A stretch of DNA of 64,000 nucleotides, taken from positions 1-64,000 of the forward strand of contig MPMR01000010.1 in the NCBI GenBank assembly GCA_002238605.1, in the 5' to 3' direction. Positions 9,721 to 26,954 of the stretch are shown here, piece by piece. The notes beneath the pieces are model-generated. The model had not been told where the DNA came from, searched no databases, and saw only the letters and a list, made by a program, of their open reading frames with translations. Position numbers and translations under genes: made by a program. Position 1 is the first letter of the stretch; every line of letters begins with the position of its first letter. This DNA is from BD2-11 clade cluster bacterium bin43 (GTDB lineage: Bacteria; Gemmatimonadota; Gemmatimonadetes; Longimicrobiales; Gaopeijiaceae).

Positions 9721-10704
9721 TCAACCGTCCTCGCGCAGCCAGCGTGCGGCCTCCACGGCGTAGTAGGTGACGATGATGTCCGCGCCGGCCCGCCGGATCG
9801 CGCCCAGGCTCTCGAGCGCCACCGCCTTCTCGTCGATCCAGCCGCGTTCGCCCGCGGCGCGCAGCATGCTGAATTCGCCGGAGACCTGGTACGCCGCGGT
9901 GGGCGCGCGGAAGGTATCCTTGACCCGCCGGATCACGTCCAGGCACGGGCCTGCCGGCTTCACCATCACAACGTCCGCGCCTTCCTCGAGGTCGGCCCGC
10001 ACCTCGCGCAGCGCTTCGTCGCTGTTGGCGGGGTCCATCTGGTGGGTGCGGCGGTCGCCGTGCGACGGAGCCGAGTGGGCGGCGTCGCGGAAGGGACCAT
10101 AGAAGGCGGACGCGTACTTGGCGGCATACGACACGATGGGGGTTGAGCCGTGACCCGCCTCGTCCAGGGCCGCGCGGATCACGCCCACGCGCCCGTCGAG
10201 CATGTCGCTCGGGGCCACCGCGTCCGCTCCCGCGCGAGCGTGCGCGACGGCCGCCCGCGCGAGCAGAGGAAGGGTGGCCTCCTCGTCCAGGGCGCCATCC
10301 GGCGTCAGCACGGCGCAGTGGCCGTGGTCGGTGTACTGGCAGAGACACACGTCGGTCCAGACGGGAAGGTCGGGATGATGCGCCTTGAGTTCGCGCACCG
10401 CCCGGGGTACGAGGCCGTCGTCCGCGCAGGCTTCGGAGCCGAGCGCGTCCTTGCGGTCGGGCACTCCGAAGAGGAGCACCGCGCCCACGCACGCGTCCAC
10501 GGCCGCTGCGGCCTCCTCCACCAGCAGTTCGCGGGAAAGGCGGTGTACGCCGGGCATGCTGGGCACGGGCTCGCGCCGTTTTTCGCCCGGCACCACGAAG
10601 AGCGGATACACGAGATCACGCGCCCGGAGCACGCTCTCGCGTACCAGGCGACGCCAGGCCGGCGACTGCCGGAGGCGGCGGAGACGGTGCTGCGGATAGG
10701 CCAT
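9721..10704 (-). CDS. hemB: Porphobilinogen synthase (delta-aminolevulinate dehydratase)
   Basis: 327 residues, standard length. It condenses two 5-aminolevulinate molecules to porphobilinogen in haem synthesis. The two Schiff-base lysines are Lys196 in SYAAKYASAFYGPFR and Lys249 in VMVKPA. The metal-site cysteines 120, 122 and 130 in DVCLCQYTDHGHC indicate a zinc-type enzyme. GADAVAPSDMLDGRV and YQVSGEFSML are further family motifs. It starts 46 bases after hemA and is probably in one operon with it, the HmuY-like gene and the small gene that follows. Confidence 0.97.
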   Translation of the reverse strand: MAYPQHRLRRLRQSPAWRRLVRESVLRARDLVYPLFVVPGEKRREPVPSMPGVHRLSRELLVEEAAAAVDACVGAVLLFGVPDRKDALGSEACADDGLVPRAVRELKAHHPDLPVWTDVCLCQYTDHGHCAVLTPDGALDEEATLPLLARAAVAHARAGADAVAPSDMLDGRVGVIRAALDEAGHGSTPIVSYAAKYASAFYGPFRDAAHSAPSHGDRRTHQMDPANSDEALREVRADLEEGADVVMVKPAGPCLDVIRRVKDTFRAPTAAYQVSGEFSMLRAAGERGWIDEKAVALESLGAIRRAGADIIVTYYAVEAARWLREDG

Positions 10705-10750
10705 GCGTCGGGATGCCGCCGGTTTGCGGGAGGGCCGTCCGTCGCGGCGC

Positions 10751-12082
10751 TCAGCCGGCGCCGTTGCGCGCGCGGTCGCCGTTGGACTCGGCCGGCTCGT
10801 CCGGCGTCAGCTGGAAGATCTCCTTGACCGCGGCCAGGCTGGAGACCCCCTCGGAAGTCTCCAGGTCGAGCTCGCGCAGGTGGCAGGTGGGCTGGTGCAG
10901 CAGCCGGGCCACCAGCGAGCGGGTGTAGCGTTCCAGGCGGTCGCGGCTCGACTCGTCGAAACCGGGCAGGTGCCGGCGCACTTCCTCTTCGGCGATCCGG
11001 TAGAAGCTCTCGCGCAGCGACCGGAGCACCGGGACCACCTGCAGCGTTTCGAACCAGTCGACGAAGTTCTGGAGTTCTTCCTCGACGATGCGCTCGACGT
11101 GGGGAATCTGCTTGCTGCGGCGGATCAGGTTCTCCTGCACGATGTCGCCCAGGCTGTCCAGGTCGCGCAGGAAGACGTTGGGAATGCGGCCGGCTCCGGA
11201 TTCGACATCCCTGGGATTGGCGATGTCGATGATCACCAGCGGCCTTCCACCCCGCTCGCGCATTATGGCGCAGAGCGTCGCGGCGGTGATGACCGGGTTC
11301 GGGGCGGAGGTCGCGGTCACCACGACGTTTGCCGTCCCGAGCGCGGCGTGGAGTTCGCCGAAGGGCCGCGCGGCCCCGCCGAACTCGTCCGCCAGCGCCC
11401 GCGCGTGTCCGGCGGTGCGGTTGACGATGGTCAGGCTGCGGGGCTTCTGCGCGGCGAAGTTGCGTGCCGCCTGAGCGCCGGTGCGTCCCGCGCCCACCAC
11501 CAGCACGGCCTGCTCGGAAAGGTCGGAAAGGATGTTGGTGGCCAGTCGCACCGCGGCGAACGCCACCGACGCCGATCCCTTGCCGATATCCGTTTCCGCG
11601 CGCGCCCGCTTCCCCGTGCGCACGGCGGACTGGAAGAGGCGGGTGAGGGGCGGGCCGCAGGTTCCCTCTTCCGCCCCCAGCGCATAGGCCGGGCGTACCT
11701 GTCCCAGCACCTGCGGCTCCCCGATCATGAGCGAATCGAGCCCGGCGGCCACGCGGAAGAGATGATGAGCCCCCTCGCGTCCGCTCAGGGAGAACGTGTG
11801 ACGTTCGGTGGATACGGCGTCGTTTTCCTTGATGTCGCGCAGCTTGTGGCGCACCAGTTCGATGGCCCGTGCGGGCTCCCGCGTCCAGGCGAAAATCTCG
11901 GTCCTGGTGCAGGTGGAGAGGACCACGCTTTCGCGAATCAGGCGGTCGCCGTGGGCGCCGTCGCCATGCATGTCGACGAGCGTTCCGAGCAGCTTGCGCG
12001 TTTCCTCCCCGGAAAGCGCCAGCCGGTCCCGGGCCGCGGCCGGGGCGACCCTGTGGTTGGTCCCGAATACGAGGAGTTCCAC
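10751..12082 (-). CDS. hemA: Glutamyl-tRNA reductase
   Basis: 443 residues from the GTG at 12082. It reduces Glu-tRNA(Glu) to glutamate-1-semialdehyde, the first committed step of C5 tetrapyrrole synthesis. The start is chosen because the family begins near LLVFGTNHRVAP; the frame is open for about 40 more codons upstream, but that part does not resemble the family. The catalytic cysteine is Cys58 in VVLSTCTRTEIF. SLMIGEPQVLGQVR and the NADPH fold VLVVGAGRTGAQAAR are clear, and the C-terminal dimerisation helices are complete. It heads the minus-strand hem operon. A plausible promoter lies upstream. Confidence 0.96.
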   Translation of the reverse strand: MELLVFGTNHRVAPAAARDRLALSGEETRKLLGTLVDMHGDGAHGDRLIRESVVLSTCTRTEIFAWTREPARAIELVRHKLRDIKENDAVSTERHTFSLSGREGAHHLFRVAAGLDSLMIGEPQVLGQVRPAYALGAEEGTCGPPLTRLFQSAVRTGKRARAETDIGKGSASVAFAAVRLATNILSDLSEQAVLVVGAGRTGAQAARNFAAQKPRSLTIVNRTAGHARALADEFGGAARPFGELHAALGTANVVVTATSAPNPVITAATLCAIMRERGGRPLVIIDIANPRDVESGAGRIPNVFLRDLDSLGDIVQENLIRRSKQIPHVERIVEEELQNFVDWFETLQVVPVLRSLRESFYRIAEEEVRRHLPGFDESSRDRLERYTRSLVARLLHQPTCHLRELDLETSEGVSSLAAVKEIFQLTPDEPAESNGDRARNGAG

Positions 12083-12169
12083 CGTCTCCCTGGATTGAAG
12101 CGACGTGCTCGGCCCGATCCGTTCCGGGCGAGTCCCGAACCTTTCGGGAAAGCGGTCAGGCAGAAGATG

Positions 12170-12199
12170 ATAATAATTGTCGGTACGGCACGCCTTCAA
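12170..12199 (-). promoter_or_regulatory. Probable sigma-70 promoter for hemA operon
   Basis: On the minus strand TTGAAG (12199-12194, 4/6 to TTGACA), an 18-base spacer and TATTAT (12175-12170, 5/6 to TATAAT). A small hairpin (CCCGAA/TTCGGG, 12134-12148) lies between it and the hemA GTG. Confidence 0.5.
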
Positions 12200-12282
12200 C
12201 CTTGCCCGGTTTCGCGGTCCTGAAGAAGTTGAGCGGTCCGAGTCGGCACCGGCGAGGACTTTACTCCAGCGACGGGATCCCG

Positions 12283-12528
12283 GTGAGCGACATTCAGGAG
12301 CGACGCGTCGGAGACCTTCTGATCCAGATCGACCGAAACCTTTGCGTGGGATTCGGCGACTGCATCGAGGCCGCGGAAGCCGCCTTCGAGCTGGACGACG
12401 AGGGGGTTGCGGTGTTCAGGGAAAGCATCGACGGGGTGGACCGCGAGACCCTGCTGGCCGCCTGCGACGAGTGTCCCGTGGACGCCATTGCCGTAATCGA
12501 TTCCGACGGAAGGCAGCTCCTACCCTGA
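12283..12528 (+). CDS. Small single-cluster ferredoxin
   Basis: 81 residues from a GTG; the Shine-Dalgarno is weak, so the start is tentative. Cluster ligands are in CVGFGDC (C-x5-C, without the middle cysteine) and CDECPVDAI. This is the layout of the 3Fe-4S/4Fe-4S ferredoxins that serve P450s and some radical enzymes. The fold (FELDDEGVAVF) matches this small ferredoxin family. It opens the long plus-strand cluster, 23 bases before the Mrp-type ATPase. An electron-donor role for the radical SAM enzyme at 16818-18266 is plausible but inferred from position only. Confidence 0.8.
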   Translation: MSDIQERRVGDLLIQIDRNLCVGFGDCIEAAEAAFELDDEGVAVFRESIDGVDRETLLAACDECPVDAIAVIDSDGRQLLP

Positions 12529-12551: not shown

Positions 12552-13460
12552 ATGAGGAAGATCCGCACCTACCACGAGGTGGAGTCGCAGACGGGCGACC
12601 TGCTCGTGGATCAGATCCGAGGCCAGCGCCAGCGACTCGAGAGCCGGCTGGCCGGGATTCGCAGTCTGATCGCCGTCGGGAGCGGCAAGGGGGGGGTCGG
12701 CAAGAGCCTGGTGACGGCCAACCTGGCTGCCGCCCTCGCCGGAGAGGGCTGCTCGGTGGGTGCGCTGGACGCGGATCTGAACGGCCCGTCCCTGGCCCGC
12801 ATGCTGGGCGCGTCCGGGGAGCGGCTGGTGGATGGGGCCGAGGGCGTGGTTCCGGCGCCGGCCGCCTGCGGTGTCCGTGTCATGTCGATGGAGCTGCTTC
12901 AGAACGACGCCGACGCTCCCCTGCGCTGGCGCGCGCCCTCCGGCGACGGCTTCCTGTGGCAGAGCTCGATCGAGACCGGAGCCGTGCGGGAGTTTCTGTC
13001 GGATGTGGCGTGGGGCGAGCTCGACTTCCTTCTGATGGACCTGCCGCCGGGCACCGACAAGATGGATCGCATCTTCCAGCTGCTGCCGGGGCTCGGGACC
13101 CTGCTTCTGGTGACGACTCCGTCCGAGATGTCGCGCCGGGTCGTGGCCCGGGCGGCGCGCCTGGCGCGCGAGCAGGGAATCCCGCAGGTGGGGCTGGTGG
13201 CGAACATGACCGAATACGTCTGTCCGTGTTGCGGTCACTCGGATCCCCTCTTTCCCGGGGACGGCGTCACGCGCCTGGCGGGAGCCACCGGCCTGGAGAT
13301 CTGGAGCCGGATCCCCTTCGATCCCCGTCTGGGCGAGGGATCCGACCGCGGGGTCCCCGCCGTGATCGCCGGAGGGGATTCGCCGGGCGCGCGCGCCTTC
13401 CGGGCGCTGGCCGGGAGGCTCGCCGATCTCGGGCGGACCGGGAAGGAGGATGGCCGATGA
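12552..13460 (+). CDS. Mrp/NBP35-type Fe-S cluster carrier ATPase
   Basis: 302 residues. The deviant Walker A GSGKGGVGKS (43-52) and MDLPPGT mark the Mrp/NBP35 branch of MinD-like P-loop ATPases, which hold a bridging 4Fe-4S cluster at a CxxC motif in a dimer and pass it to target proteins. The CxxC is visible in YVCPCCGHSD. There is no N-terminal DUF59 domain. Its neighbours include a ferredoxin, a radical SAM enzyme and cytochromes, so a dedicated rather than general Fe-S delivery role is possible. Its stop overlaps the next start (ATGA). Confidence 0.9.
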   Translation: MRKIRTYHEVESQTGDLLVDQIRGQRQRLESRLAGIRSLIAVGSGKGGVGKSLVTANLAAALAGEGCSVGALDADLNGPSLARMLGASGERLVDGAEGVVPAPAACGVRVMSMELLQNDADAPLRWRAPSGDGFLWQSSIETGAVREFLSDVAWGELDFLLMDLPPGTDKMDRIFQLLPGLGTLLLVTTPSEMSRRVVARAARLAREQGIPQVGLVANMTEYVCPCCGHSDPLFPGDGVTRLAGATGLEIWSRIPFDPRLGEGSDRGVPAVIAGGDSPGARAFRALAGRLADLGRTGKEDGR

Positions 13461-13909
13461 AATTTCTCTGCATCCAGTGCGATCACATCATGGCCTTCGC
13501 GGAACGCCAGCTGCCCGGGGACGGCACCCTGGCGGCGGTGTTCGAGTGCTCGGCGTGTGGGCGCGACATCGCCATGCTCACCAACCCCATGGAGACCCAG
13601 CTGGTGAGCAGCATGGGCATCGAAATCGGGGGCCGGACGGTGCCCGAGCAGCCCATGGAACTGGTGCGGGGCAACCTTGAGGGGGCGCGGCAGGACGCGT
13701 TTGTGGAGGAGGAGCCCCCCGCTCCCGTCCGTCCCGGCCGGGTCGAGTGGACCCCGGATGCGGTGGACCGGCTCGGCCGGGTGCCGTCCTTCGTGCGCGG
13801 CATGGTCAAGCGCATCTATACCGACTACGCCCGCGAACGAGGCATCGACCGCATGACCCCGGAGGTCATGGACACGGCACGCTCGGATCTGGGGCTGGAG
13901 GGAATGTGA
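13457..13909 (+). CDS. Zinc-ribbon protein with C-terminal PCP_red-like domain
   Basis: 150 residues. The N-terminal zinc ribbon has Cys5, Cys8, Cys31 and Cys34 (CIQC, CSAC). A linker rich in Glu and Pro leads to residues 97-142, beginning EWTPDAVDRLGRVPSFVRG and ending TPEVMDTAR. This has the pattern of the PCP_red module at the C-terminus of the BchB/ChlB subunit of dark protochlorophyllide reductase (W-T-x2-A, RL-x2-VP, R, AR, T-x2-VM). The same pattern ends the proteins at 14701-16818 and 16818-18266. No enzymatic residue is seen; an adaptor or tetrapyrrole/Fe-S handling role is possible. The start overlaps the Mrp stop. Confidence 0.78.
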   Translation: MKFLCIQCDHIMAFAERQLPGDGTLAAVFECSACGRDIAMLTNPMETQLVSSMGIEIGGRTVPEQPMELVRGNLEGARQDAFVEEEPPAPVRPGRVEWTPDAVDRLGRVPSFVRGMVKRIYTDYARERGIDRMTPEVMDTARSDLGLEGM

Positions 13910-14358
13910 CCGATTCGAGCCGGGGCCTCGCCCCGCGGCAGGCGCGGCCCGCCGGGCGGGAGCAGGACCGGGGGCCCGCCCCGGGACACGGCGATGCGCG
14001 CGCCCGCAAATTCCGGCAGGCCGCCTTCTGGTATCTGCACGTCGGGCTGCTCTACGAGGCGGCCGTGGTCGCCATGTGGCGCAACGGGCTCGTCAACCCG
14101 ATCCGCGGGCCCATCGTGCTCTGGCTCCTGCTTGGAGCTGCGATCGTGGCGCTGGTCTTCTGGGGCCTCTGGTTCCGGCGAAGCGTGTGGCTGGCCCGCG
14201 GGATCTGGGGGCTGCACGCGCTGCGCCTGCCGAGCATGATCGAAGGCGCGTTCCTGCCCGGACCCGATGCAGCGCTGCCCGCAGCCTTCTACCTGACGGC
14301 CATCGTCGTCATCGTCATCAACCTGTGGCTGCTGGCGCGCGCCGGATGGGATCTCTGA
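13906..14358 (+). CDS. Small integral membrane protein, unknown
   Basis: 150 residues from a GTG overlapping the previous stop (GTGA). The first 35 residues are polar and Arg/Pro-rich, followed by about four membrane helices: WYLHVGLLYEAAVVAM, GPIVLWLLLGAAIVALVFWG, a weaker amphipathic segment, and FYLTAIVVIVINLWLLAR. No family is recognised. It is translationally coupled to the zinc-ribbon/PCP_red gene, so it may anchor that assembly at the membrane; this is inference from layout. Confidence 0.7.
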   Translation: MTDSSRGLAPRQARPAGREQDRGPAPGHGDARARKFRQAAFWYLHVGLLYEAAVVAMWRNGLVNPIRGPIVLWLLLGAAIVALVFWGLWFRRSVWLARGIWGLHALRLPSMIEGAFLPGPDAALPAAFYLTAIVVIVINLWLLARAGWDL

Positions 14359-14700
14359 CCCGGGGCGGGGCGATTTCCCGGAGTGGATCCGGGCCTTCAC
14401 GCGCCGTCCCCGCACACCTCCGGGACGTTTGACATCGATCAGCGATTTCCGGTATAATCTGCCCGGCTCCGCAAGGGCCGACACATGGGATCTGAACGAG
14501 CGGGCCCGGGCGCCCGCTCATGTTATGTAAGCCGACCTATCGGCGACCGCCTTCGGGGACTTGGCCCTGCCTGACTTGCCGAACCAAGTGGACTGTCTCG
14601 TGCTCTCTTCTTGCCTTGGCGGACATGCGTTCGCCGCTCGCGAGTTGCATGGCTGAACCACACGCGCCAGGTCCCTCGAAAACCCCCAATCGAGGCAGCC
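14359..14700 (+). promoter_or_regulatory. Gene-free region: promoter plus long 5' leader of the universal-stress gene
   Basis: 342 bases without a credible gene. It holds a consensus promoter (14429-14458) and then a leader of about 235 bases to the ATG at 14701. The leader has a GC hairpin (GAGCGGG/CCCGCTC, around 14498-14520) without a following T-run, so it looks like mRNA structure rather than a terminator. I see no tRNA, SRP, 6S or known riboswitch core in it. A short GAGGCAG before 14701 serves as ribosome site. Confidence 0.55.
14429..14458 (+). promoter_or_regulatory. Perfect consensus sigma-70 promoter with overlapping FNR-like half-sites
   Basis: TTGACA (14429-14434), an 18-base spacer and TATAAT (14453-14458): 12 of 12 consensus bases. 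The -35 is also part of TTGAC-ATCG-ATCAG (14429-14442), matching 8 of 10 bases of the FNR/ANR consensus TTGAT-N4-ATCAA. The site is too close to the start point for class II activation, so if real it would more likely repress. Confidence 0.72.
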
Positions 14701-16818
14701 ATGTACCGTGAGATCTTTGTTCCAGTGGATAACTCGCCCTGGTCGGACTGGGCGGTGGATCGCGCCATCGAACTTGCTTCGCGCTCCGACGGAAGCGTCA
14801 CCGGAAACCACGTGTACGCCGCGCGCCTGCACGACATCCGCTTCCGCCAGCTCGAGACGGGCCTTCCCGCCCAGTTTCAGACCGAGGCCGAGATCAAGCG
14901 GCAGCGCAAGATCCACGACAAGCTGATCGAGAAGGGGCTGCAGCTCATCTCCGATTCGTTCCTGGACCAGGTCGACCGCCGCTGCCAGGATGCCGGCGTG
15001 CCTCTGACGCGCCAGCTGCTGGAAGGCATCAACTACGAAGAGATCGTGAGCGAGGTGAACTCGGGCGAGGGCCACCTGCCGAGCCTCATCGGCTTCGATC
15101 CCAACATCGCCTCGAGCTACGACGGGGGCGACAAGGTGCGCAGCGACGTGCGCCTGGGCGCGGACGGCCGCATCGTCGCGGAGGACGAGGACCACGACGA
15201 GAAGCTGGCCGGATCGAGTGGCCGCGACTACGACTTGATGGTCATCGGGGCGCACGGCATCGGCCATCAGCCCTTCTCCCAGCTCGGCGGCGTGGTGGCG
15301 CGCGTTCTTCAGAAGGTGGACAAGGACGCCTTGGTGGTGCGGAACGAGCGGCCGCTCGCCGGGGGCAGCTTCATGGTGTGCGTGGACGGCTCCGCGTACA
15401 GCTACAAGGCCATGCGCCTCGCCCTGGAGATGGCCTCGGAGTACGGGGCGAAGCTCTACGTGGGCTCATCCTTCGATGTCGAGTACCATCACGCGGTCTT
15501 CGGCAACATCAAGGACGTGCTCTCGGTGCAGGCCTCGAAGATCTTCAAGTTCGAGGAGCAGGAAGAGCTTCACAACAACATCATCGACAAGGGACTGCTG
15601 AAGCTCGCCCAGGCCAACGTGAAGCGGGCGCGCATCATGGCGGAGGAGTATCCGGAGGTCGAAGTCGAGTCCCAGGTGCTCATCGGCAAGCCCTTCCAGG
15701 TCATCCTGCAGTGGGCCGAGGAAGTCGACCCCGGCCTGCTCATCCTCGCGCGCCACGGCGCGCACCGCATCGAGGGCACGGACCTGGGATCCCAGGCGCA
15801 CAATCTGCTGCGGCAGTCGGACGCGAACATCCTCCTCATCGGCACCACCGACGTTCGTCCGGAGGAGATTCCCTGGATCGAGGAAGACGGCGAGATGGGG
15901 CTCGAGTGGGCTCCGGAGGCGGAGGTCCGCATCCTGCGCGTCCCGCCCTTCGCTCTCGGCATCGCCCGCAAGGCGGTGGAGGAATACGTGCTGGAGAACT
16001 GGCGCCCGCGGGAGGAGGCGTCCGAGCCGTCCGCCAACGGATCCGGCGCCGGCGGAGCGCGCGCAAATGGTGCGTCGGGCGCGCACGCGAACGGGTCCGA
16101 CGGAGCCGAACCGCCGCTCCTGGAGCCCGGGCGCGACACCGGCGCCACCCTGCCCATGGTGACGAGCGAGTGGCTGGACGAGGCGATCGCCAAACTGCTT
16201 CCCACCCACATGCAGCTCATCATGGGGATCGGCACGGCCGAGGAGCTCGCGCTCGCCGAAGTGAAGGCGGGGGAGGCCATGAAGCGCACGGTGGTCGAGG
16301 GCAACGACGCCGACCCCGTGCCTGCCAGCCCGACCATCGAAACGACGTGCCCCTATACCGGGCACGTGCATGAACGGGTGCGCACGGCGGCCGACCCGGT
16401 GGTGTGGACCGAAGAGGCCTTCGACCGCCTGGGCGCGGTGCCGCTCATCGCCCGCCCCCTGGCGCGCAACACGGTGGAGCGCTTTGCCCGCGACCACGAT
16501 TTCTGGCGCATCACCACGCGGGTCATGGACGAGAACAAGCAGGCCATGATGGAGGCGGACACCTTCGACACCGACACCATGCTGGTGATGTTCCGGGAGC
16601 TGCAGACCAAGCAGCTCAAGGCCGCGGCCGAAGGCGTCGACGGGCTGACTCCCGAAATGCGCAAGTTCATCGAGGAGGCCAAGGCTTCGGGCGTGACCCG
16701 CTGCCCGATCCGCGACGTGGCCGAGCAGGCCGACGACTGCCCGGTCGACTTCAAGACCGTCAGCCCCGCCGACGCGAAGGCCGCCGTCGAGCAGTTCATG
16801 CGCCGGGAAGAGGCCTGA
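14701..16818 (+). CDS. Double universal-stress protein with C-terminal PCP_red-like domain
   Basis: 705 residues. Two UspA-type domains: the first from MYREIFVPVDNSPWSDWAVDRA with a long acidic insertion and DYDLMVIGAHGIGHQPFSQLGG, the second from GGSFMVCVDGSAYSYKAMRLAL to LLILARHGAHRI and ANILLIG. A low-complexity linker (residues about 440-480, Asn/Gly/Ala-rich) leads to a C-terminal region. There VVWTEEAFDRLGAVP to RVMDENKQAM (about 567-616) matches the PCP_red-like module of the neighbouring proteins. The tail has Cys in RCPIRDV and DDCPVDF. Usp domains bind ATP or sense stress; a fusion to PCP_red is unfamiliar to me. Its stop overlaps the radical SAM start (TGATG). Confidence 0.82.
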   Translation: MYREIFVPVDNSPWSDWAVDRAIELASRSDGSVTGNHVYAARLHDIRFRQLETGLPAQFQTEAEIKRQRKIHDKLIEKGLQLISDSFLDQVDRRCQDAGVPLTRQLLEGINYEEIVSEVNSGEGHLPSLIGFDPNIASSYDGGDKVRSDVRLGADGRIVAEDEDHDEKLAGSSGRDYDLMVIGAHGIGHQPFSQLGGVVARVLQKVDKDALVVRNERPLAGGSFMVCVDGSAYSYKAMRLALEMASEYGAKLYVGSSFDVEYHHAVFGNIKDVLSVQASKIFKFEEQEELHNNIIDKGLLKLAQANVKRARIMAEEYPEVEVESQVLIGKPFQVILQWAEEVDPGLLILARHGAHRIEGTDLGSQAHNLLRQSDANILLIGTTDVRPEEIPWIEEDGEMGLEWAPEAEVRILRVPPFALGIARKAVEEYVLENWRPREEASEPSANGSGAGGARANGASGAHANGSDGAEPPLLEPGRDTGATLPMVTSEWLDEAIAKLLPTHMQLIMGIGTAEELALAEVKAGEAMKRTVVEGNDADPVPASPTIETTCPYTGHVHERVRTAADPVVWTEEAFDRLGAVPLIARPLARNTVERFARDHDFWRITTRVMDENKQAMMEADTFDTDTMLVMFRELQTKQLKAAAEGVDGLTPEMRKFIEEAKASGVTRCPIRDVAEQADDCPVDFKTVSPADAKAAVEQFMRREEA

Positions 16819-18266
16819 TGGCCGATTCGCCCACCGCCGTTCTCCCCACTCTGGGGCGCGACGGCTTCTCCGAACCCTCGGCCACCCCCTCCCTCCGCTG
16901 GGTCGCGGAAGGGGTGTCGGCGGATTCGGGGGCGGCGCCGGGGCTCCCGCACATCATCGCGTGGAACCTCACCCGGCGCTGCAATCTGGAGTGCGCGCAC
17001 TGCTACATCTCCGCGGGATCCTGGCACCTGGCCGACACCGAGCTCTCCACCGCGGAGTGCCATCGCGTGCTCGATCAGGTTCTGGAGGTCAACCCGAACC
17101 CGGTGCTCATCCTCTCGGGTGGGGAACCGCTTCTGCGCGACGACCTGGAGGAGATCGCCGCCAGGGCGAGCGCCGGCGGGGCCACGGTGGTGGTGGGCAC
17201 CAACGGCACCCGCCTCAGCGACGCGCGCATCGAGTCGCTCATGGAAGCGGGGGTGAAGGGGGTCGCGGTGAGCGTGGACTCGCTGGTCGACAGCTACCAC
17301 GACCGCTTCCGCCACGGGTCGGGGGCGCTCTCCGACACCCTGGACGCGGTGGACCGGCTGGCCGCGCACCGCCTGGACTTCATCGTCCAGACCAGCGTCA
17401 CCCGGGGCAACCGGGGGGAAGTGGCGGATATCGCGGCCTGGGCGGAGAGCCGGGGCGCGGTTTCGTTCAACCTGTACTTTCTGGTGCCCACCGGGCGCGG
17501 GGAGCGCATGCAGGGCCTCGCCCCGGAAGAGAACGAGGCCGTGCTTGCCGAACTCGTGGAGCTCGAGCGCGAGTACCGGGGCCGAATGATGGTTCGCTCC
17601 AAGTGCCAGCCGCAGATCATGCGCCACGTGATCGAGGGCGGGGAGGAGTCGCCGCTGCTGAACTACGGCACCCGCTGTCCGTGCGGCGTCCACTACTGCC
17701 GCATCACCCCGGAGGGCAAGGTCACCCCCTGTCCCTACACGCCGGTGGTCGCGGGCGACCTCACCACCACCCCGTTCCGCCAGGTCTGGGAGTCGTCCCC
17801 GGTCTTCACCCGGTTGCGCCGGGGCGATCTGGGCGGGCGCTGCGGGCGCTGCGAGTACCGCGCCGTGTGCGGGGGCTGCCGCGCGCGCGCCCACGCCCTT
17901 ACCGGCGACCTGCTCGGGCCCGACGACTCCTGCGCGTACGATCCGGCCGGCGACCGGGAGGTCATCGAACCGCGGCGCCAGGTCGTGTACGGCGACGACA
18001 CCGTCCCCGGCCTCCCCTGGACCGAAGAGGCGCGCGCGCGCCTCTCAGTCGTGCCCAGCTTCGTGCGCGGAGTGGTGTCGAATCGCGTCGAGTCGTTCGC
18101 GCGCAAGCGAGGGTACACGATGGTGACCGCCAGGGTCATGGCGGAGGTGCGCCGCGGCATGCCGGTTGATTTCTCCAGGCGACTCCCTTTCTTCCTACGC
18201 AACCAGATGTCCGCGGCCGCATCGCGCGACGGAATTCCGGAGGAGGACGATGCTCCCCGGAGTTGA
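16818..18266 (+). CDS. NirJ/AhbD-like radical SAM/SPASM enzyme with C-terminal PCP_red-like domain
   Basis: 482 residues. The radical SAM cluster is Cys55, Cys59 and Cys62 in NLTRRCNLECAHCY, followed by VLILSGGEPLLRDDLEE. The wording IIAWNLTRRCNLECAHCYISAG and NLYFLVPTGRG closely resembles NirJ/AhbC/AhbD enzymes that modify haem side chains. A SPASM-type auxiliary-cluster region is present (RCPCGVHYC, CPYTPVVAGD, CGRCEYRAVCGGCRARA). Residues about 398-440 (PWTEEARARLSVVPSFVRG to TARVMAEVRRGM) repeat the PCP_red-like module. Function is not proven: a tetrapyrrole substrate is likely from family and context, a peptide substrate is the alternative. It runs directly into the bd-like oxidase gene. 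Confidence 0.85.
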   Translation: MADSPTAVLPTLGRDGFSEPSATPSLRWVAEGVSADSGAAPGLPHIIAWNLTRRCNLECAHCYISAGSWHLADTELSTAECHRVLDQVLEVNPNPVLILSGGEPLLRDDLEEIAARASAGGATVVVGTNGTRLSDARIESLMEAGVKGVAVSVDSLVDSYHDRFRHGSGALSDTLDAVDRLAAHRLDFIVQTSVTRGNRGEVADIAAWAESRGAVSFNLYFLVPTGRGERMQGLAPEENEAVLAELVELEREYRGRMMVRSKCQPQIMRHVIEGGEESPLLNYGTRCPCGVHYCRITPEGKVTPCPYTPVVAGDLTTTPFRQVWESSPVFTRLRRGDLGGRCGRCEYRAVCGGCRARAHALTGDLLGPDDSCAYDPAGDREVIEPRRQVVYGDDTVPGLPWTEEARARLSVVPSFVRGVVSNRVESFARKRGYTMVTARVMAEVRRGMPVDFSRRLPFFLRNQMSAAASRDGIPEEDDAPRS

Positions 18267-20142
18267 CCAGACCTCGGAGGGAAATGTGCCCAGCAGTCCG
18301 TGGATGAATCCGCCCGTGCATCGAGAGCGAGGAGGCGCCGCCAGACCCGGCCTGACCTGGTGCGCGCGCGTCGGTCCACTTCTCCTGGTTGCGGCGCTCG
18401 CCCTGTTGGTGATGGCCGAGCCCGCATTCGCCCAGGTTCCCGCCGGCCGCGACTACGGCGACTTCCCGATCATCGGCGGGCGGGCGGCGGTGTGGATCGC
18501 GGCCCAGGTGCACCTGCTCTTCGCCGCGTTCGTGCTGGGCGTGCCCATGTTCGCGGTGGTCACCGAGGCCATCGGCATGTTCGGCGGCGACGACCGCTAC
18601 GACAAGCTGTCCAAGGAGTTCACCCGGCTCCTTCTGGTCGCATACTCCGCGACCGCCATCTGGGGCGGCATCCTGCTCTTCCTGCTGATCACCATCTACC
18701 CCACGCTCTTCAGCTATCTCGCGCAGATCTTCAACCTGTCGATGTGGATCTACGTGGGGCTCTTCTTCTTCGAGTCCTTCACGCTGTACCTGTACTACTA
18801 CGGCTGGGACCGCTGGAAGAAGGGGCGCGCCAAATGGTTCCACTGGGGGCTGGGCATCGCCCTGAACGTCTGGGGCACGATCGTCATGTTCATCGCCAAC
18901 GGCTGGCTGACCTACATGATGAGCCCGCCGGCCGAGGTCACGGTCGACACGGCCCCCCAGATGGTGAATCTGTGGATGGCGCTCACCAACGCGACCTGGA
19001 TGCCCATCAACATCCACCGGCTGATCGCCAACGTCGTGTTCGGGGGGGCGGTGGTCGGCGCCTACGCCGCCTACCGCTTCCTGGCGGCAAAGAGCGACGA
19101 GGAGCGGGCCCACTACGACTGGATGGGCTACGTGGGCAACATGATCGCCATAGGCGCGCTCATCATCCTGCCCTTCGCGGGCTACTGGCTGGGCCGGGAG
19201 ATCTACGAGTTCAACCAGCAGATGGGCATCACCATGATGGGCGGGTTCATGAGCTGGCTGTGGATCATCCAGGCCTTCCTGATCGGGGTGCTGTTCCTGG
19301 CGGGCAACTATTACCTGTGGGTGGGGATGGGCCGAATACCCGGGGCGGAGCGCTTCATGCCCTACACGAAGTACATGCTGGCGGTGCTCATCGTGGGCGT
19401 GATCGTGTGGGCGACGCCCAACACCATGATCGCCAGCCGCGAGGAGTTCGCGGCGATGGGCGGCACGCACCATCCCTTCCTGAGCGTCCTCGGGCTGATG
19501 AGCGGCAAGAACACTGCGGTCAACTTCATGATCCTGACCACCTTCCTGTCGTTCCTGCTCTACCGGCGCGCCAACAAGGAACCGGTGGTGCCCTGGGCGC
19601 GCACGGGCACGATCGTGCAGGGGGCGATCTTCATCGTGGCCTCCGCGATCGTGCTTTTCTACGGGATCTACGGCTACATGGTGCCGACCCTCGTGCGCAT
19701 CGGCTTCTCGGTGTACCAGGTACTCACGGTGCTCGCGTGCATCATCGGCGTGATCACCATCGACATGCTGATGTTGCGCGGCGCCACCTCCAGAGGCGAG
19801 ATCCAGTGGGGCCGCATGCCGGCTCGGTCCCAGTACGCGCTCTTCATCCTGGCGGTGACGTTTACCTGGCTGATGGGCCTCATGGGCTTCGCCCGCAGCG
19901 GCATCCGCCAGCACTGGCACGTCTTCGAGGTCATTCGCGACACCAGCCCCTGGGCGGCCACCCCCGCGCTCGGATATTCGTCGGTGGTCATCTCCGCCTG
20001 CGTGCTCATCTTCTTCGGGCTGGTGGCCTTCATCTTCTGGCTCGGCTCGCTGGCCGAGAAACCCGTGATTTCGTCGGTTGGGCAGGCCGCGGCCCCCGGC
20101 GGGATGCAGAGCGAACTTCAGCCGGCACCCAGCGAGGGATAG
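18250..20142 (+). CDS. Cytochrome bd-like (CydA superfamily) membrane subunit, non-canonical
   Basis: 630 residues with about 14 membrane helices. CydA features are visible: His88 in AAQVHLLFAAFVLG (haem b595 ligand position), Glu175 in GLFFFESFTLY followed by GWDRWKKG, FIANGWLTYMM, and His256 in NIHRLIANVVFGG (haem b558 ligand position). The quinol-binding Q-loop and the GRQPW motif of quinol oxidases are not seen, and there is no CydB neighbour; c-type cytochromes follow instead. This fits the divergent cytochrome-associated branches of the superfamily known from Nitrospirota and others. The ATG at 18250 follows AGGAGG by 3 bases and overlaps the radical SAM gene; a GTG at 18286 with GGAGG at 5 bases gives a shorter N-region before the signal-like helix and may be the true start. 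Confidence 0.85.
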   Translation: MLPGVDQTSEGNVPSSPWMNPPVHRERGGAARPGLTWCARVGPLLLVAALALLVMAEPAFAQVPAGRDYGDFPIIGGRAAVWIAAQVHLLFAAFVLGVPMFAVVTEAIGMFGGDDRYDKLSKEFTRLLLVAYSATAIWGGILLFLLITIYPTLFSYLAQIFNLSMWIYVGLFFFESFTLYLYYYGWDRWKKGRAKWFHWGLGIALNVWGTIVMFIANGWLTYMMSPPAEVTVDTAPQMVNLWMALTNATWMPINIHRLIANVVFGGAVVGAYAAYRFLAAKSDEERAHYDWMGYVGNMIAIGALIILPFAGYWLGREIYEFNQQMGITMMGGFMSWLWIIQAFLIGVLFLAGNYYLWVGMGRIPGAERFMPYTKYMLAVLIVGVIVWATPNTMIASREEFAAMGGTHHPFLSVLGLMSGKNTAVNFMILTTFLSFLLYRRANKEPVVPWARTGTIVQGAIFIVASAIVLFYGIYGYMVPTLVRIGFSVYQVLTVLACIIGVITIDMLMLRGATSRGEIQWGRMPARSQYALFILAVTFTWLMGLMGFARSGIRQHWHVFEVIRDTSPWAATPALGYSSVVISACVLIFFGLVAFIFWLGSLAEKPVISSVGQAAAPGGMQSELQPAPSEG

Positions 20143-20151
20143 GGAAGGCAG

Positions 20152-20952
20152 ATGCTAAAGACCAACCTGAGTATCCTGGCGGTGGTGATCGGCTGCCTGG
20201 GCGTGTTCACCTGGGTCGCCAACGCCATTCCGCAGATTCAGTCGGACGTACCGGAGGATCTGGTGTTGTCGGACGACGTCAGCCCCGAGGAGCTCATTGC
20301 GGCGGGCGAGGAACTGTATAACGGCGGAGGCGGCTGCACGGCCTGCCACGGTCTGGGCGAGCGCGCCCCGAACCTGCTCACGGACCACGGCGGAACCGGG
20401 CTCATCGGCGAGCGCTGCGCGAACCGCGTGGCGGGGCAGGACTGCAAGCAGTACCTGCATACCTCGCTGGTCGACCCCAACGCCTACCTGGTGGAAGGGT
20501 TCGCGCCGATCATGCTGGATGCGAGCCGCACCCTCTCCTCCGTGCAGATCTGGGCGCTGGTGGCCTACCTGGAGTCCCTGGGCGGGGATGTCACGGTTAC
20601 GGGAGCGGATTTCGCGGATGGCGGCGACGCGCCGCCCGCCGGCGGCGCGATGGCGACTGCGGCCGCGGCTCCGGCGCTGGGTCCGACCGGGGACCTCGAT
20701 CCGGAAGCGCTTCTGACCCAGCACACCTGCAGCACCTGCCACACGCTCACCGGGCCCTCGCCGCTCGGGCCGTCCTTCGAGGGCATGGGAGCTCGCCTGA
20801 CCGCCGATGAAATCCGGACGTCCATCCTCGATCCCACTGCGTCTGCGGCCGAGGGATTCGAGGCGATGCTCGGGCTGATGCCCCCGATCTTCGGGAACAT
20901 CCCGGCGGCCCAGCTCGAGTCGATCGTGCAGTTCCTCGCATCGCAGAGATAG
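20152..20952 (+). CDS. Membrane-anchored dihaem cytochrome c
   Basis: 266 residues. An N-terminal uncleaved helix (NLSILAVVIGCLGVFTWV) anchors two c-type haem domains with CTACH (62-66) and CSTCH (193-197), joined by an Ala/Gly-rich linker. Both domains end in the usual helical closing (WALVAYLESLGG and ESIVQFLASQ). It lies 9 bases after the bd-like gene and probably carries electrons to or from that subunit on the periplasmic side. Confidence 0.9.
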   Translation: MLKTNLSILAVVIGCLGVFTWVANAIPQIQSDVPEDLVLSDDVSPEELIAAGEELYNGGGGCTACHGLGERAPNLLTDHGGTGLIGERCANRVAGQDCKQYLHTSLVDPNAYLVEGFAPIMLDASRTLSSVQIWALVAYLESLGGDVTVTGADFADGGDAPPAGGAMATAAAAPALGPTGDLDPEALLTQHTCSTCHTLTGPSPLGPSFEGMGARLTADEIRTSILDPTASAAEGFEAMLGLMPPIFGNIPAAQLESIVQFLASQR

Positions 20953-20980: not shown

Positions 20981-21784
20981 ATGAACACCAAGCCCTGGAA
21001 GCATCCGCTGGGCCAGGCGGCCATCGTCGTGGTTCTGGCGTACCTCGTGTTCGAATGGGGGATCTGGCTCCTGCCGCCCCTCTTCGGGGTCGCCAGCGCC
21101 CCGGTCCCCGCCACCGTGGTTCTGCAATACATGGGAACCGTCGTGGTGGGCGTGCTGATCTGGGTCAGCGACTCGGAGGAGCGCTGGAAACAGTTCAAGG
21201 CGCCGATCCACCGGGTCATGGTGGATCCGCGCCAGAAGGTCCTGCGCACGGCGCTCATGGTCACCATTCCCCTGCTGGTCGCCTTCATGACCTTCGACCG
21301 GGTGCGCCCCACGGTCTCGGCGCCGGCGGCGCTGCGTTCGGTACACCCGGCGCCTCCCGGACAGATCGACTTCCGGGGGGAGACCATGGTCCTCAACGGG
21401 CTCGAGAACCCGCTCCGGCACGAGGGCGACTTCAACGAGCACTACGAGGAAGGCAAGAGGGTCTACGTCCAGAACTGCATGCCCTGTCACGGCGACGCGC
21501 TGGACGGGCAGGGCCACTTTGCGAGCGCCTTCAACCCCGCGCCCCTCAGTTTCCAGGATCCCGGGACCATCGTACAGCTGACGGAGAGCTTCGTCTTCTG
21601 GCGCATCGCCAAGGGCGGTCCCGGGCTCCCGCGCGAAGCGACGCCGTGGGACTCCGCGATGCCCGCATGGGAGGATTCGCTGACGGCCGAGGAAATCTGG
21701 CAGGTGATCATCTACCTCTACGAACAGACCGGCTGGGAGCCGCGCACCTGGGAGGAAGAGGGCGCCGAAGGGGAGGAGCACTGA
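20981..21784 (+). CDS. Membrane cytochrome c with multi-helix N-terminus
   Basis: 267 residues. Three membrane helices (AAIVVVLAYLVFEWGIWLL, TVVLQYMGTVVVGVLIWV, ALMVTIPLLVAFMTF) precede a monohaem domain with CMPCH (166-170) and GDALDGQGHFASAF. The Met axial ligand is probably in DSAMPAWEDSLT. The multi-helix start suggests tight docking to the bd-like subunit. The stop overlaps the next start (TGATG). No named family is recognised beyond cytochrome c. Confidence 0.87.
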   Translation: MNTKPWKHPLGQAAIVVVLAYLVFEWGIWLLPPLFGVASAPVPATVVLQYMGTVVVGVLIWVSDSEERWKQFKAPIHRVMVDPRQKVLRTALMVTIPLLVAFMTFDRVRPTVSAPAALRSVHPAPPGQIDFRGETMVLNGLENPLRHEGDFNEHYEEGKRVYVQNCMPCHGDALDGQGHFASAFNPAPLSFQDPGTIVQLTESFVFWRIAKGGPGLPREATPWDSAMPAWEDSLTAEEIWQVIIYLYEQTGWEPRTWEEEGAEGEEH

Positions 21785-23388
21785 TGCGGGCGCGAGCGAG
21801 CAGTCCACGGGCTGCCATGATACCCGGTTTCGTATTCGCAGCGGCGATGGCGTGCGCCGGCTCGGCGCCCCTGACCGCCCAGGAAGAGAACGCGCTCGGG
21901 CGCGACGTCTACGACCGCTGGTGCGCGTCCTGCCACGGATACGAAGGTCTCGGCGACGGCTACGCGGCGGAGTACATGCTCCCGCGGCCGCGGGACTTCA
22001 CCCAGGCGCTCTACCAGATCCGCACCACCCCGAGCGGGCAGCTGCCGACCGACGACGACATCATGCGGGTCATCAACGAGGGCATGCCGGGCACGACCAT
22101 GCCCGGATGGGAGGAAGAGCTCAGCCTCGAAGAGCGGCTGGCGCTCGTCGACTACCTGAAGAGTTTGTCCCGGTTCTTCGCCACCGGCGAGGCCCCCGAG
22201 CCCATGACCTTCAGCAGCCCGACCCGGGCGACCGAGGAAGCCCTGGCCGACGGACGGGAGGTCTACGAGCTCATCGAGTGCAATCGCTGCCACGGCGCCG
22301 ACGGCCGGGGCGACGGCACCTCCTCCCCGACGCTGGTGGACGACACCGGCATGCCCATCTACTCGGTGGACCTGACCGAGAACTGGTACTTCAACGGCGG
22401 CGGCACGGTGGAGGACATCTACCGGCGGCTGCGCACCGGCCTGGACGGAACGCCGATGCCGTCGTTCACCGACCTCATCGACGCCGGCGTCATCACCGAC
22501 GAACAGCTGTGGAACCTCTCCCACTACGTGCGCAGCTTCGCTCCCGAGGACCCGCCGGGCATCACCGAGGTGATCCGGGCCGGCCTGGTGGAGGATGCGC
22601 CCCTGCCGCAGGGCGTCGACGACCCGATGTGGGAGTCGGCGGAGGCGTTCTACATCCCGATGGGCGGGCAGATCATCCAGAGCCCGCGCTGGTTCGTCCC
22701 GCAGGTGGCCGGGCTGTGGGTGCGCGCGCTGCACGACGGCGGCGAGCTCGCGGTGCACGTCTCCTGGAGCGACCACTCCGAGAGTCCCGATACCGCGTGG
22801 GCCGACTTCCAGGCCCGGGTCCTGTCGGCGGTGGGACCCGACGAGGGCGACATGGAACCGGGTCCGCGACCCGACGGCCTGTACGTCCAATTCCCCATGG
22901 AAATCCCCGAGGGAATGGACAAGCCCTACTTCCTCCTGGGAGATCCCCTGGAGCCCGTGTACCTGTGGCACTGGGAGAGCACGGCCGGCGCAGCGCACGA
23001 GGCGGACGCCCGCGGACTGGGCACCACGGCCCCTCAGGGCGACGCGAGCCAGTCGCTTGCGTCGGAGGCGGCGTTTTCGGCGGGGCGCTGGGCTGTTATG
23101 TTCCGCCGCGCTCTCGAGACCGAGGATCCGGGGGACCTGCAGTTCCGCGTCGGCGAGCCGGTGCCGGTTGGCTTCGCCGCCTGGGACGGTGACAACGGAG
23201 AATCGGGGTCCCGGGGCTCGATCAGCTCATGGCATTACATTTTCCTGCAGGAACCGACGCCAGCCACCGTGGTGGTCGCGCCGCTCATCGCGACGCTGCT
23301 CACCGCCGGGCTGGGCGTCCTGCTTGTGGCCCGGGCCCAGAGGCGCGTGCGGGAAGGCGCCGAAGGCGCGGATGAAGGAAACGCGTAG
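21784..23388 (+). CDS. Dihaem cytochrome c fused to ethylbenzene dehydrogenase gamma/NxrC-like domain
   Basis: 534 residues. A signal peptide (IPGFVFAAAMACAGSAPLTAQ) is followed by two cytochrome c domains with CASCH (47-51) and CNRCH (166-170). Residues about 275-495 match the periplasmic gamma-subunit haem domain of DMSO-reductase-family enzymes (PF09459 type): DPMWESAEAFYIPMGGQ, ELAVHVSWSDHS, DGLYVQFPMEIPEGMDKPYF, AAWDGDNGESG. A C-terminal helix (VVVAPLIATLLTAGLGVLLVA) anchors it. No molybdopterin or Fe-S partner subunits are in the window, so the gamma-like domain serves here as a relay within a cytochrome complex or docks to an enzyme encoded elsewhere. Confidence 0.88.
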   Translation: MRARASSPRAAMIPGFVFAAAMACAGSAPLTAQEENALGRDVYDRWCASCHGYEGLGDGYAAEYMLPRPRDFTQALYQIRTTPSGQLPTDDDIMRVINEGMPGTTMPGWEEELSLEERLALVDYLKSLSRFFATGEAPEPMTFSSPTRATEEALADGREVYELIECNRCHGADGRGDGTSSPTLVDDTGMPIYSVDLTENWYFNGGGTVEDIYRRLRTGLDGTPMPSFTDLIDAGVITDEQLWNLSHYVRSFAPEDPPGITEVIRAGLVEDAPLPQGVDDPMWESAEAFYIPMGGQIIQSPRWFVPQVAGLWVRALHDGGELAVHVSWSDHSESPDTAWADFQARVLSAVGPDEGDMEPGPRPDGLYVQFPMEIPEGMDKPYFLLGDPLEPVYLWHWESTAGAAHEADARGLGTTAPQGDASQSLASEAAFSAGRWAVMFRRALETEDPGDLQFRVGEPVPVGFAAWDGDNGESGSRGSISSWHYIFLQEPTPATVVVAPLIATLLTAGLGVLLVARAQRRVREGAEGADEGNA

Positions 23389-23422
23389 ACATCGAAGTTC
23401 AAATAGCACCACGGAGGAAGGA

Positions 23423-24301
23423 ATGAGAGACCTGTTCGGAGGCGGTCGGGCCACGGTTATGGCGACGGCGGCGATGTTCGCCATCGCGTGCGGTGGCGGC
23501 GGCGGAAGCGAGGCCGGCGGCGGCATGGAGGAAGAGGCCGCGGGCGAGGAGATGGCCTCTCCCGTCGACATGGCCACCGCGGGCGGCATCCACGCGATGG
23601 TGATGTTCGAGGGCATGGCGCCCGAAATGGATGTGATCGACATGGCGTCCGAGCCCGATTGCGCGGCCCGGTACACCGACACCCCGATGTCCGAGGAAGT
23701 CGTGGTGGGTGACGGCGGCGGACTCGCCAACGTCTTCGTCTACGTGAGGGAAGGCGTCGACGCGGGCATGAACTTCCCCACGCCCGGCGGCGCGGTGGTG
23801 ATGGACCAGATCGGCTGCCGCTACGTCCCACGGGTCGTGGGCGTGCAGTCGGGGCAGGACCTCACCTTCCGCAACTCGGACGGCCTGCCGCACAACATCA
23901 ACGCCTCCCCCAGCACCAACCGCGGCTTCAACGTCAGCCAGCCGGTGAACATGGACACCAACCGCAGCTTCCCCATGGCCGAGGTGATGGTCCCGGTGCG
24001 CTGCGACGTGCACGGCTGGATGAGCGCCTACGTGGGCGTGCTGGATCACCCCTTCCACGGGGTCACGGACATGGCGGGAGGCGCCGACCTGGGCATGCTC
24101 CCGCCCGGTGAGTACGTGGTCGAGGCCTGGCACGAGCGCTATGGAACGCAGACCGCCAGCGTCACCGTCACCACCGCCGAGACGGCGATGGTGAGCTTCT
24201 CCTTCTCGGAGGCGATGGCGGCCAACGCCGTGGTGCCGATGGGCGAGCCGATCGATCCCCACGGTCTCGGAGCCCACGCTCTCGCTCCCGAGACCCATTA
24301 G
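23423..24301 (+). CDS. Cupredoxin-like lipoprotein
   Basis: 292 residues from an ATG after GGAGGAAGG. A lipoprotein signal ends at AMFAIAC and is followed by a Gly/Glu/Met-rich stretch. The core resembles the plastocyanin/azurin-like 'methylamine utilization' family: GQDLTFRNSDGLPHNINAS supplies His, and VPVRCDVHGWMSAYVGV supplies Cys, His and Met at type-1 copper spacing (C-x2-H-x2-M). A carboxypeptidase-regulatory-like closing (LPPGEYVVEAWHERYGTQ) follows, then a Met/His-containing tail. Placed between the cytochromes and oxidase subunit II, it could be a copper electron carrier to CuA; copper binding itself is not proven. Confidence 0.8.
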   Translation: MRDLFGGGRATVMATAAMFAIACGGGGGSEAGGGMEEEAAGEEMASPVDMATAGGIHAMVMFEGMAPEMDVIDMASEPDCAARYTDTPMSEEVVVGDGGGLANVFVYVREGVDAGMNFPTPGGAVVMDQIGCRYVPRVVGVQSGQDLTFRNSDGLPHNINASPSTNRGFNVSQPVNMDTNRSFPMAEVMVPVRCDVHGWMSAYVGVLDHPFHGVTDMAGGADLGMLPPGEYVVEAWHERYGTQTASVTVTTAETAMVSFSFSEAMAANAVVPMGEPIDPHGLGAHALAPETH

Positions 24302-24415: not shown

Positions 24416-25117
24416 ATGAGCTGGATGCTCCCCGAAAGCTTTTCCACCTTTGGGCCGGACGTCGACTTTCTGTACTACGCGATCCTCGTGGTAACGGGAG
24501 TGGTCTTCGTGATCACCGAGGCGCTCCTGGTCTATTTCGTCATCCGCTACCGGCGCCGAGACGGACAGAAGGCCACCTACATCCACGGGTCGACGAAGGC
24601 GGAGATCATCTGGACTACCGTCCCCTTCATCGCCGTGCTGGGGCTGGCGTTCATCAGCATTCCTTCGTGGAACATGATGAAGAACCCGGACAGCGTGCCC
24701 GCCGACGCCCTCGACTACATCGTCAACGCGAAGCAGTTCGAATGGGAGATCACCTACGCCGGCGCGGACGGGGTCACCGGCACCGCCGACGACATCTCGA
24801 CGATCAACATCATGCACGTCCCGGTGAACCAGGCCGTCAACATCACCCTCCGGTCCGAGGACGTGCTTCACTCCTTCTTCCTGCCCGAGATGCGGGTGAA
24901 GCAGGACGCCGTGCCCGGGATGGACATCACCGTCTGGTTCGAGGCGACGGCCGCGGGCGCGTATCCCATCGGTTGCGCCGAACTCTGCGGCAATCTGCAT
25001 ACGACCATGGGCGGGACCCTCAACGTATACGAGGCGGCCGACTTCGAAGCGTGGGTCGCGTCCCAGAGCGCGGACGCCGACGACGCCGACGACGCTGACG
25101 ATCAGGAGGACCAGTAG
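24416..25117 (+). CDS. coxB: Cytochrome c oxidase subunit II (CuA)
   Basis: 233 residues. Two membrane helices (YYAILVVTGVVFVITEALLVYF and TTVPFIAVLGLAFISI) precede the cupredoxin domain that takes electrons from cytochrome c or copper carriers. CuA ligands are complete: His152 (VLHSFF), Cys187, Glu189, Cys191, His195 and Met198 in CAELCGNLHTTM. No fused cytochrome c domain. The tail is Asp/Ala-rich. It ends directly against the subunit I start. Confidence 0.96.
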   Translation: MSWMLPESFSTFGPDVDFLYYAILVVTGVVFVITEALLVYFVIRYRRRDGQKATYIHGSTKAEIIWTTVPFIAVLGLAFISIPSWNMMKNPDSVPADALDYIVNAKQFEWEITYAGADGVTGTADDISTINIMHVPVNQAVNITLRSEDVLHSFFLPEMRVKQDAVPGMDITVWFEATAAGAYPIGCAELCGNLHTTMGGTLNVYEAADFEAWVASQSADADDADDADDQEDQ

Positions 25118-26878: not shown

Positions 26879-26954
26879 CCCGATGCCCGTCTTCGTTTCG
26901 TCGGCGGAGCCGCATTCTCTCCAGTGACCTGGAACTTCAGGAGATAGCTGACGC

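Follow-up and report, generated by a model that had tools for sequence, protein, structure and literature searches.

Four copies of a chlorophyll-enzyme domain beside a bd-like oxidase gene: a probable haem-handling group in Gemmatimonadota

INTRODUCTION

PCP_red (PF08369) is a small domain best known as the tail of the chlorophyll enzyme BchB. The contacts that BchB is known to make with its pigment lie upstream of this domain, and we know of no settled function for PCP_red itself. What, then, is it doing on three adjacent proteins of a bacterium whose genome encodes no BchB-type protein? The proteins in question are encoded in the stretch of DNA analysed here—'the window', the first 64,000 nucleotides of contig MPMR01000010.1 of the Gemmatimonadota bacterium bin43—within a run of genes that leads into a bd-like oxidase gene and a set of cytochrome genes. 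The shared domain, the co-inheritance of the set with the oxidase, and the haem-biosynthesis genes that often adjoin it suggest that this is probably an undescribed group of proteins that handles or alters haem for the bd-like oxidase. A search of the literature found nothing relevant on PCP_red or PF08369, and no description of such a system, although absence there is not proof. Four PCP_red copies in a conserved operon without chlorophyll synthesis offer a route to learning what this domain does.

ORGANIZATION OF THE GENES

The genes form one tightly packed run on the + strand, from Fdx to CoxBAC, in which several neighbours overlap: Mrp and ZnP (ATGA), ZnP and TMP, UspP and rSAMP, and rSAMP and CydA. 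Fdx (12280..12528, predicted start approximate) is a small 4Fe-4S ferredoxin (Fer4_13, E 5e-9; Fer4_15, E 3e-9). Mrp (12552..13460) is a P-loop ATPase, probably of the Mrp/ApbC/NUBPL Fe-S carrier type (PF10609, E 4e-65), that scores 210 bits against the NCBIfam equivalog for MrpORP (cut-off 450) and 159 bits against that for ApbC (cut-off 348). ZnP (13457..13909) combines a zinc ribbon with a C-terminal PCP_red; the four ribbon cysteines, C5, C8, C31 and C34, are invariant in 71 homologues from the best 80 of 131 loci. TMP (13906..14358), a small membrane protein, has no Pfam match. Between TMP and UspP lies a gap of 342 bases containing a promoter-like site, TTGACA-18-TATAAT (14429..14458, + strand; 12/12 matches), that congeners also have, two of them in a form with one mismatch; the leader of UspP has no match in Rfam.

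UspP (14701..16818) has two Usp domains (PF00582, E 4e-29) and two PCP_red copies (PF08369, E 7e-13). Its AF2 model resembles tandem Usp proteins, and the ATP-binding Usp motif, GxxG-x9-G(S/T), is degenerate in both domains (GAHG...GG and ARHG...GS). It possesses three conserved Cys-Pro pairs, at C550, C668 and C680; Cys-Pro is a motif known in haem sensors, and found also at metal sites. rSAMP (16818..18266) is a radical SAM/SPASM protein (PF04055, PF13186) with PCP_red at residues 401–445.

Next comes the bd-like CydA homologue (18250..20142; PF01654, E 9e-21), followed by a di-haem cytochrome c (20152..20952), a second cytochrome c (20981..21784), and a protein with two cytochrome c domains and a haem-binding domain of the ethylbenzene-dehydrogenase type (21781..23388; PF13442, PF09459). 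A conserved cluster protein (23420..24301, predicted start approximate) looks cupredoxin-like by eye and has a carboxypeptidase-regulatory-like match below cut-off; CoxB, CoxA and CoxC of a haem-copper oxidase (24416..27590; PF00116, PF00115, PF00510) complete the run. On the – strand, divergent from it, lie hemB (9721–10704; PF00490) and hemA (10751–12199; PF05201), which together occupy 9721..12199.

THE SHARED MODULE

A preliminary description of this DNA had proposed that ZnP, UspP and rSAMP end in a common PCP_red-like module, present in three copies. The module itself is confirmed: each of the three proteins exceeds the curated Pfam cut-off for PF08369, 32.5 bits, at residues 98–142 of ZnP (53.4 bits, E 2.6e-14), 569–613 of UspP (48.8 bits, E 7.1e-13) and 401–445 of rSAMP (55.7 bits, E 5.1e-15). 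The pattern given for it, WT-x2-A-x2-RL-x2-VP, is matched exactly in each—WTPDAVDRLGRVP in ZnP, WTEEAFDRLGAVP in UspP and WTEEARARLSVVP in rSAMP—and its T-x2-VM part reads TPEVM, TTRVM and TARVM, respectively. The count and the placement need amending. UspP holds a second, weaker copy at about residues 401–433 (window 15907–15999; E 7.7e-4), making four copies within 4.4 kb, and the module is C-terminal only in ZnP; about 90 residues follow it in UspP, and about 37 in rSAMP. With a profile built in this analysis, the weaker copy of UspP was seen in 81/81 Usp homologues, each of which has at least two, and one copy each was found in 71/71 ZnP and 71/71 rSAMP homologues from the best 80 of 131 loci; in one genome (G257) the second UspP copy exceeds the Pfam cut-off. 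Across the whole 4.47-Mb genome these four copies are the sole PF08369 matches at E<0.01—the next best has an E of 0.14—and since all four recur in relatives, chance can be excluded.

In the comparisons listed, copies from different proteins share a mean identity of about 29–39%, and copies share 29–36% with BchB. In a rough tree they cluster by protein type, which implies, to the extent that trees of 50 residues can (they are weak evidence), that the duplications are older than the radiation sampled. The AF2 model of rSAMP renders PCP_red as three helices between 403 and 447, with a pLDDT of mostly 91–96. Its relatives in the PDB are BchB chains and two NMR structures in which PCP_red was solved alone: 2KRU, a BchB tail, and 2L09, from the Asr4154 protein. 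The domain has thus been a structure target outside BchB before; what sets the copies in the window apart from those in 2KRU and 2L09 is their fusion to Usp, radical SAM and zinc-ribbon partners within one operon.

The same small domain is C-terminal in BchB/ChlB of DPOR and in BchZ of COR (PDB 2XDQ, 3AEK, 2YNM). Among the nitrogenase-like proteins examined, those that carry it are tetrapyrrole reductases: BchB and, with a weak match, BchZ. DPOR, like the set described here, draws on a ferredoxin and a P-loop ATPase, but here the ATPase is of the Mrp/NUBPL type rather than BchL. A true BchB has the nitrogenase-type catalytic domain PF00148 in addition to PCP_red, and Pfam finds no PF00148 in ZnP, UspP or rSAMP.

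CONSERVATION AND CO-OCCURRENCE WITH THE BD-LIKE GENE

Using UspP as query, we compared the best 80 of 131 loci in named genomes, assigned to Gemmatimonadota by synteny; nearly all of the records are titled Gemmatimonadota, and a few Gammaproteobacteria or plain bacterium. In nearly all of these 80 the order UspP-rSAMP-CydA is constant, with ZnP, Mrp and Fdx upstream and the c-type cytochromes and CoxBAC downstream. Where there is enough DNA to tell, a script counts UspP and rSAMP as consecutive in 73/76 and rSAMP and CydA in 59/65; five of the six exceptions in the latter we ascribe to reading frames that, being drawn from stop to stop, extend into the gene before. ZnP is present in 57/58 of the loci that have more than 7 kb of upstream DNA, and 71 ZnP-bearing loci include Mrp in 70/71 and Fdx in 69/71. 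The position of TMP is variable, and in many other lineages an ABC ATPase and an ABC2 permease lie between ZnP and UspP, replacing or joining it.

A survey of 298 genomes of the phylum Gemmatimonadota extends this picture. Of these, 74 combine at least three PF08369 matches with the bd-like gene; three have the matches alone, four have the bd-like gene alone and 217 have neither. Put the other way, 74/77 genomes with at least three matches have the bd-like gene, and 74/78 with the bd-like gene have at least three matches (Fisher P 5e-61, a value overstated by the relatedness of the genomes). Where there are only one or two matches, the genome usually encodes BchB, to judge by the few examples inspected. 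Within families the set is patchily distributed, which probably reflects repeated joint gain or loss. The expectation that the three genes would stay together, and keep company with the bd-like gene, has thus been borne out in this phylum.

The bd-like CydA has 14 predicted transmembrane segments after an initial hydrophobic one. Its similarity to PF01654 spans the N-terminal half, and two invariant histidines, H88 and H256, fall within the stretch that aligns with the N-terminal half of bd oxidases. No cydB (PF02322) is found in the window's genome. A PF01654 match, candidate haem-ligand histidines and the absence of CydB mark the protein as a bd-like, non-quinol CydA. In Nitrospina, Nitrospira and Kuenenia, bd-like proteins have been described next to nitrite oxidoreductase (PMC3578206), and there are also the uncharacterised CydAA' oxidases of the OR-N type (PMC10839748, PMC12342949). 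By its features, the CydA of the window fits with both. These reports describe clusters made up much like this one, of a CydA-like protein with multiple transmembrane segments, mono- and di-haem cytochromes c, and cupredoxin-like and zinc-finger proteins, and their accessible text makes no mention of PCP_red proteins (PMC3578206, PMC10839748, PMC12342949). Unlike the clusters of Nitrospina, Nitrospira and Kuenenia so described, that of the window has no nitrite oxidoreductase.

LINKAGE TO HAEM-BIOSYNTHESIS GENES

The presence of hemA and hemB beside the set had been noted at the outset, and this pairing proves to be a local one. The arrangement found in the window is confined to the window's genus, and we reject it as a fixed feature; what recurs instead, in at least six lineages, is linkage of varied kinds to haem genes (hemA, B, E, L, ChdC, hemY-like). 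In five loci (L042, L043, L046, L049 and L052) a series hemB-ChdC-hemE-hemY-like-hemL reaches Fdx, and in two (L051 and L057) ChdC alone is directly upstream of Fdx. The order ChdC-Fdx-Mrp-ZnP also occurs (G029, L156). hemE, hemA and ChdC are near the locus in L087, and hemA in L083, while L092 has hemB and then hemE-hemL immediately before UspP. When the best 80 of 131 loci are clustered at 90% UspP identity, a haem gene lies beside the locus in 8/34 clusters; against an assumed chance rate of 2–4%, this gives a rough P of 3e-7 to 5e-5. Such linkage might also just reflect the demand of a cytochrome cluster for haem.

THE RADICAL SAM ENZYME

The NCBIfam models that rSAMP matches best are those for NirJ2 (TIGR04055, 267.5 bits) and AhbD (TIGR04545, 267 bits), well short of their equivalog cut-offs of 500; models for peptide maturases score 150 bits or less. 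Ten cysteines are invariant in 71 sequences from the best 80 of 131 loci: C55, C59 and C62, which form CX3CX2C, and C287, C305, C342, C345, C351, C354 and C372, which follow the seven-cysteine SPASM pattern save that the third spacer is CX2C, usually CX3C. Three clusters are predicted from this set, one of the radical SAM kind and two SPASM auxiliary ones. The AF2 model has a mean pLDDT of 82. The nearest solved structures are of RiPP/peptide maturases (Z about 25–27), and neither NirJ nor AhbD is among the matches listed. These structures, and a score of 267 against a cut-off of 500, are points against a tetrapyrrole role.

AhbD and NirJ/NirJ2, the nearest profiles, are likewise radical SAM/SPASM enzymes, and they modify tetrapyrroles (PMC7242693). 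rSAMP differs from them in falling below the family cut-offs, in its PCP_red tail, and in lacking siroheme decarboxylase partners: neither the window's genome nor any other set-bearing genome searched has AhbAB/NirDLGH (PF17805). ChdC (PF06778), on the other hand, is in 14/14 genomes tested, whether rSAMP is present or not. Given these two facts, rSAMP is probably not a haem b synthase or haem d1 enzyme of the canonical kind, and with the low scores they lead us to reject its identity as a canonical AhbD or NirJ. Plausibly, the tetrapyrroles available to it are haem b and coproheme.

WHAT THE SET MIGHT DO

The margin of more than 100 bits by which NirJ2 and AhbD outscore the peptide maturases favours reading rSAMP as an enzyme of tetrapyrroles. 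For PCP_red, a tetrapyrrole role is indirectly suggested by its presence on BchB and BchZ, by the linkage to haem genes, and by the Cys-Pro pairs of UspP; the position of the BchB pigment contacts, upstream of the domain, weighs against it. We infer that PCP_red either binds a tetrapyrrole or docks a partner that handles one, with a haem as the substrate and the bd-like protein as its recipient. We put at about even the chances that the set is a dedicated module for maturing a haem (tetrapyrrole) and delivering it to the cytochrome-c-linked bd-like oxidase cluster, a reading based on homology, on a shared gene order, on inheritance together with the bd-like gene, on haem-gene linkage and on the absence of the siroheme route. 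Fdx and Mrp would supply rSAMP with electrons and Fe-S clusters. rSAMP, nearest to NirJ2 and AhbD and with three predicted [4Fe-4S] clusters, would be the catalyst, acting on haem b, on its precursor iron-coproporphyrin, or on haem in the course of its placement in the bd-like protein. ZnP and UspP, with the three other PCP_red copies, would serve as carriers or scaffolds for the tetrapyrrole or for rSAMP, and PCP_red, on all three proteins, might hold either the tetrapyrrole or the proteins together.

A bolder version, which we entertain only tentatively, is that the operon makes a novel modified haem, chlorin-like or altered in a side chain, for example, and installs it in a bd-like oxidase fed by cytochrome c, with PCP_red serving several enzymes as a general adaptor for handling tetrapyrroles. 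We know of no biochemical characterization of bd-like oxidases from nitrite oxidisers and related bacteria, nor of an enzyme responsible for the haem d found in ordinary bd oxidases. If true, this would be, to our knowledge, the first case in the bd oxidase superfamily of machinery dedicated to modifying a haem. A conserved radical SAM gene beside bd-like and haem genes makes the hypothesis directly testable.

Alternatively, rSAMP might modify a protein rather than a haem, introducing a crosslink or other change into the bd-like protein or a cytochrome, with PCP_red used for recognition or docking only and UspP and ZnP acting as chaperones. The full set of SPASM cysteines would suit such an enzyme, as would the likeness to peptide maturases in structure and the strict adjacency to the bd-like gene, but the profile scores point the other way, no gene for a short precursor peptide was noticed, and the recurrent linkage to haem genes does not favour it; we consider it unlikely. 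Nor do we think it likely that the PCP_red proteins serve haem supply or regulation alone, as sensors or carriers of ordinary haem b for the many cytochromes of the cluster, with no new haem made. The cluster does encode several c-haem sites besides the haems of the bd-like protein and CoxA, haem-biosynthesis genes do adjoin it in several lineages, and Usp domains and Cys-Pro pairs would become a sensor; supply alone, however, leaves a radical SAM protein with three predicted Fe-S clusters, Mrp and the ferredoxin unexplained, and also the strict pairing of the set with the bd-like gene.

Much less probable is that rSAMP is a diverged AhbD, a coproheme decarboxylase providing an anaerobic alternative to ChdC for haem b: only NirJ2 rivals AhbD among the profiles that it matches best, and ChdC adjoins Fdx in some lineages, but ChdC is present in the genomes tested regardless of rSAMP, the score is well below the cut-off, and siroheme decarboxylase of the AhbAB type is missing. 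A remnant or side branch of bacteriochlorophyll synthesis is scarcely credible, even though PCP_red is best known from BchB and some Gemmatimonadota carry BchB and BchZ, since the window's genome and most set-bearing genomes have no BchB-type match and two genomes that have both set and BchB (G126 and G213) carry them on different contigs; as the two occur independently, we reject a role in chlorophyll synthesis.

Plasmid searches with UspP returned Usp-domain matches only, and those with rSAMP returned radical SAM proteins, none of which, among the matches listed, spans the PCP_red tail. In a divergent relative of UspP (L150, in genome G053), three PCP_red copies accompany a Usp domain and a zinc ribbon. 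The Cys-Pro pairs of UspP are not evident in it, the zinc ribbon being there instead, and this speaks against the hint of a haem sensor. A plasmid search with this divergent zinc-ribbon protein found BchB tails only. The variant is seen in 1/298 genomes, so its contig may be foreign to the G053 bin; it adjoins homologues of ZnP, Mrp and rSAMP, which suggests that the kit occurs in other lineages.

The leader of the double-Usp gene

Between the promoter-like site (TTGACA-18-TATAAT) and the gene for UspP, the double-Usp protein, lies an untranslated leader (window 14459–14700) that is strongly conserved among congeners and includes hairpin-forming stretches: GAGCGGGC...GCCCGCTC and GCCGA...TCGGC. 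An Rfam search of this stretch returned no match; possibly, it is a regulatory leader.

Related proteins in other genomes

A divergent version of the set occurs in genome G053 (L150:8126–9577 and 936–2323, both on the minus strand), perhaps on a foreign contig. One protein there combines a Usp domain, three PCP_red (PF08369) copies and a HypA-like zinc ribbon; at the opposite end are homologues of the zinc-ribbon protein ZnP, the P-loop ATPase Mrp, and the radical SAM/SPASM protein rSAMP. Genome G184 encodes an rSAMP homologue (L148:7846–9150, plus strand) whose PCP_red tail is a strong match at 68 bits, and a search of this genome for the bd-like (CydA-homologous) gene found none at the cut-off used. 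G016 has two such genes, the second (L022:16237–18243 and L023; ~50% identity) placed, with its own cytochrome set, between ZnP and UspP, an arrangement that resembles a CydAA' pair.

Among chlorophyll enzymes, the tail of BchZ, a chlorophyllide reductase subunit (L141:169–1683, plus strand), is weakly PCP_red-like (21 bits), and a second PF08369 match close to BchB in G074 (34 bits) may be a tail of this type. Elsewhere, coproheme decarboxylase (ChdC) is fused to a C-terminal Rieske domain (L087:3233–4270, plus strand).
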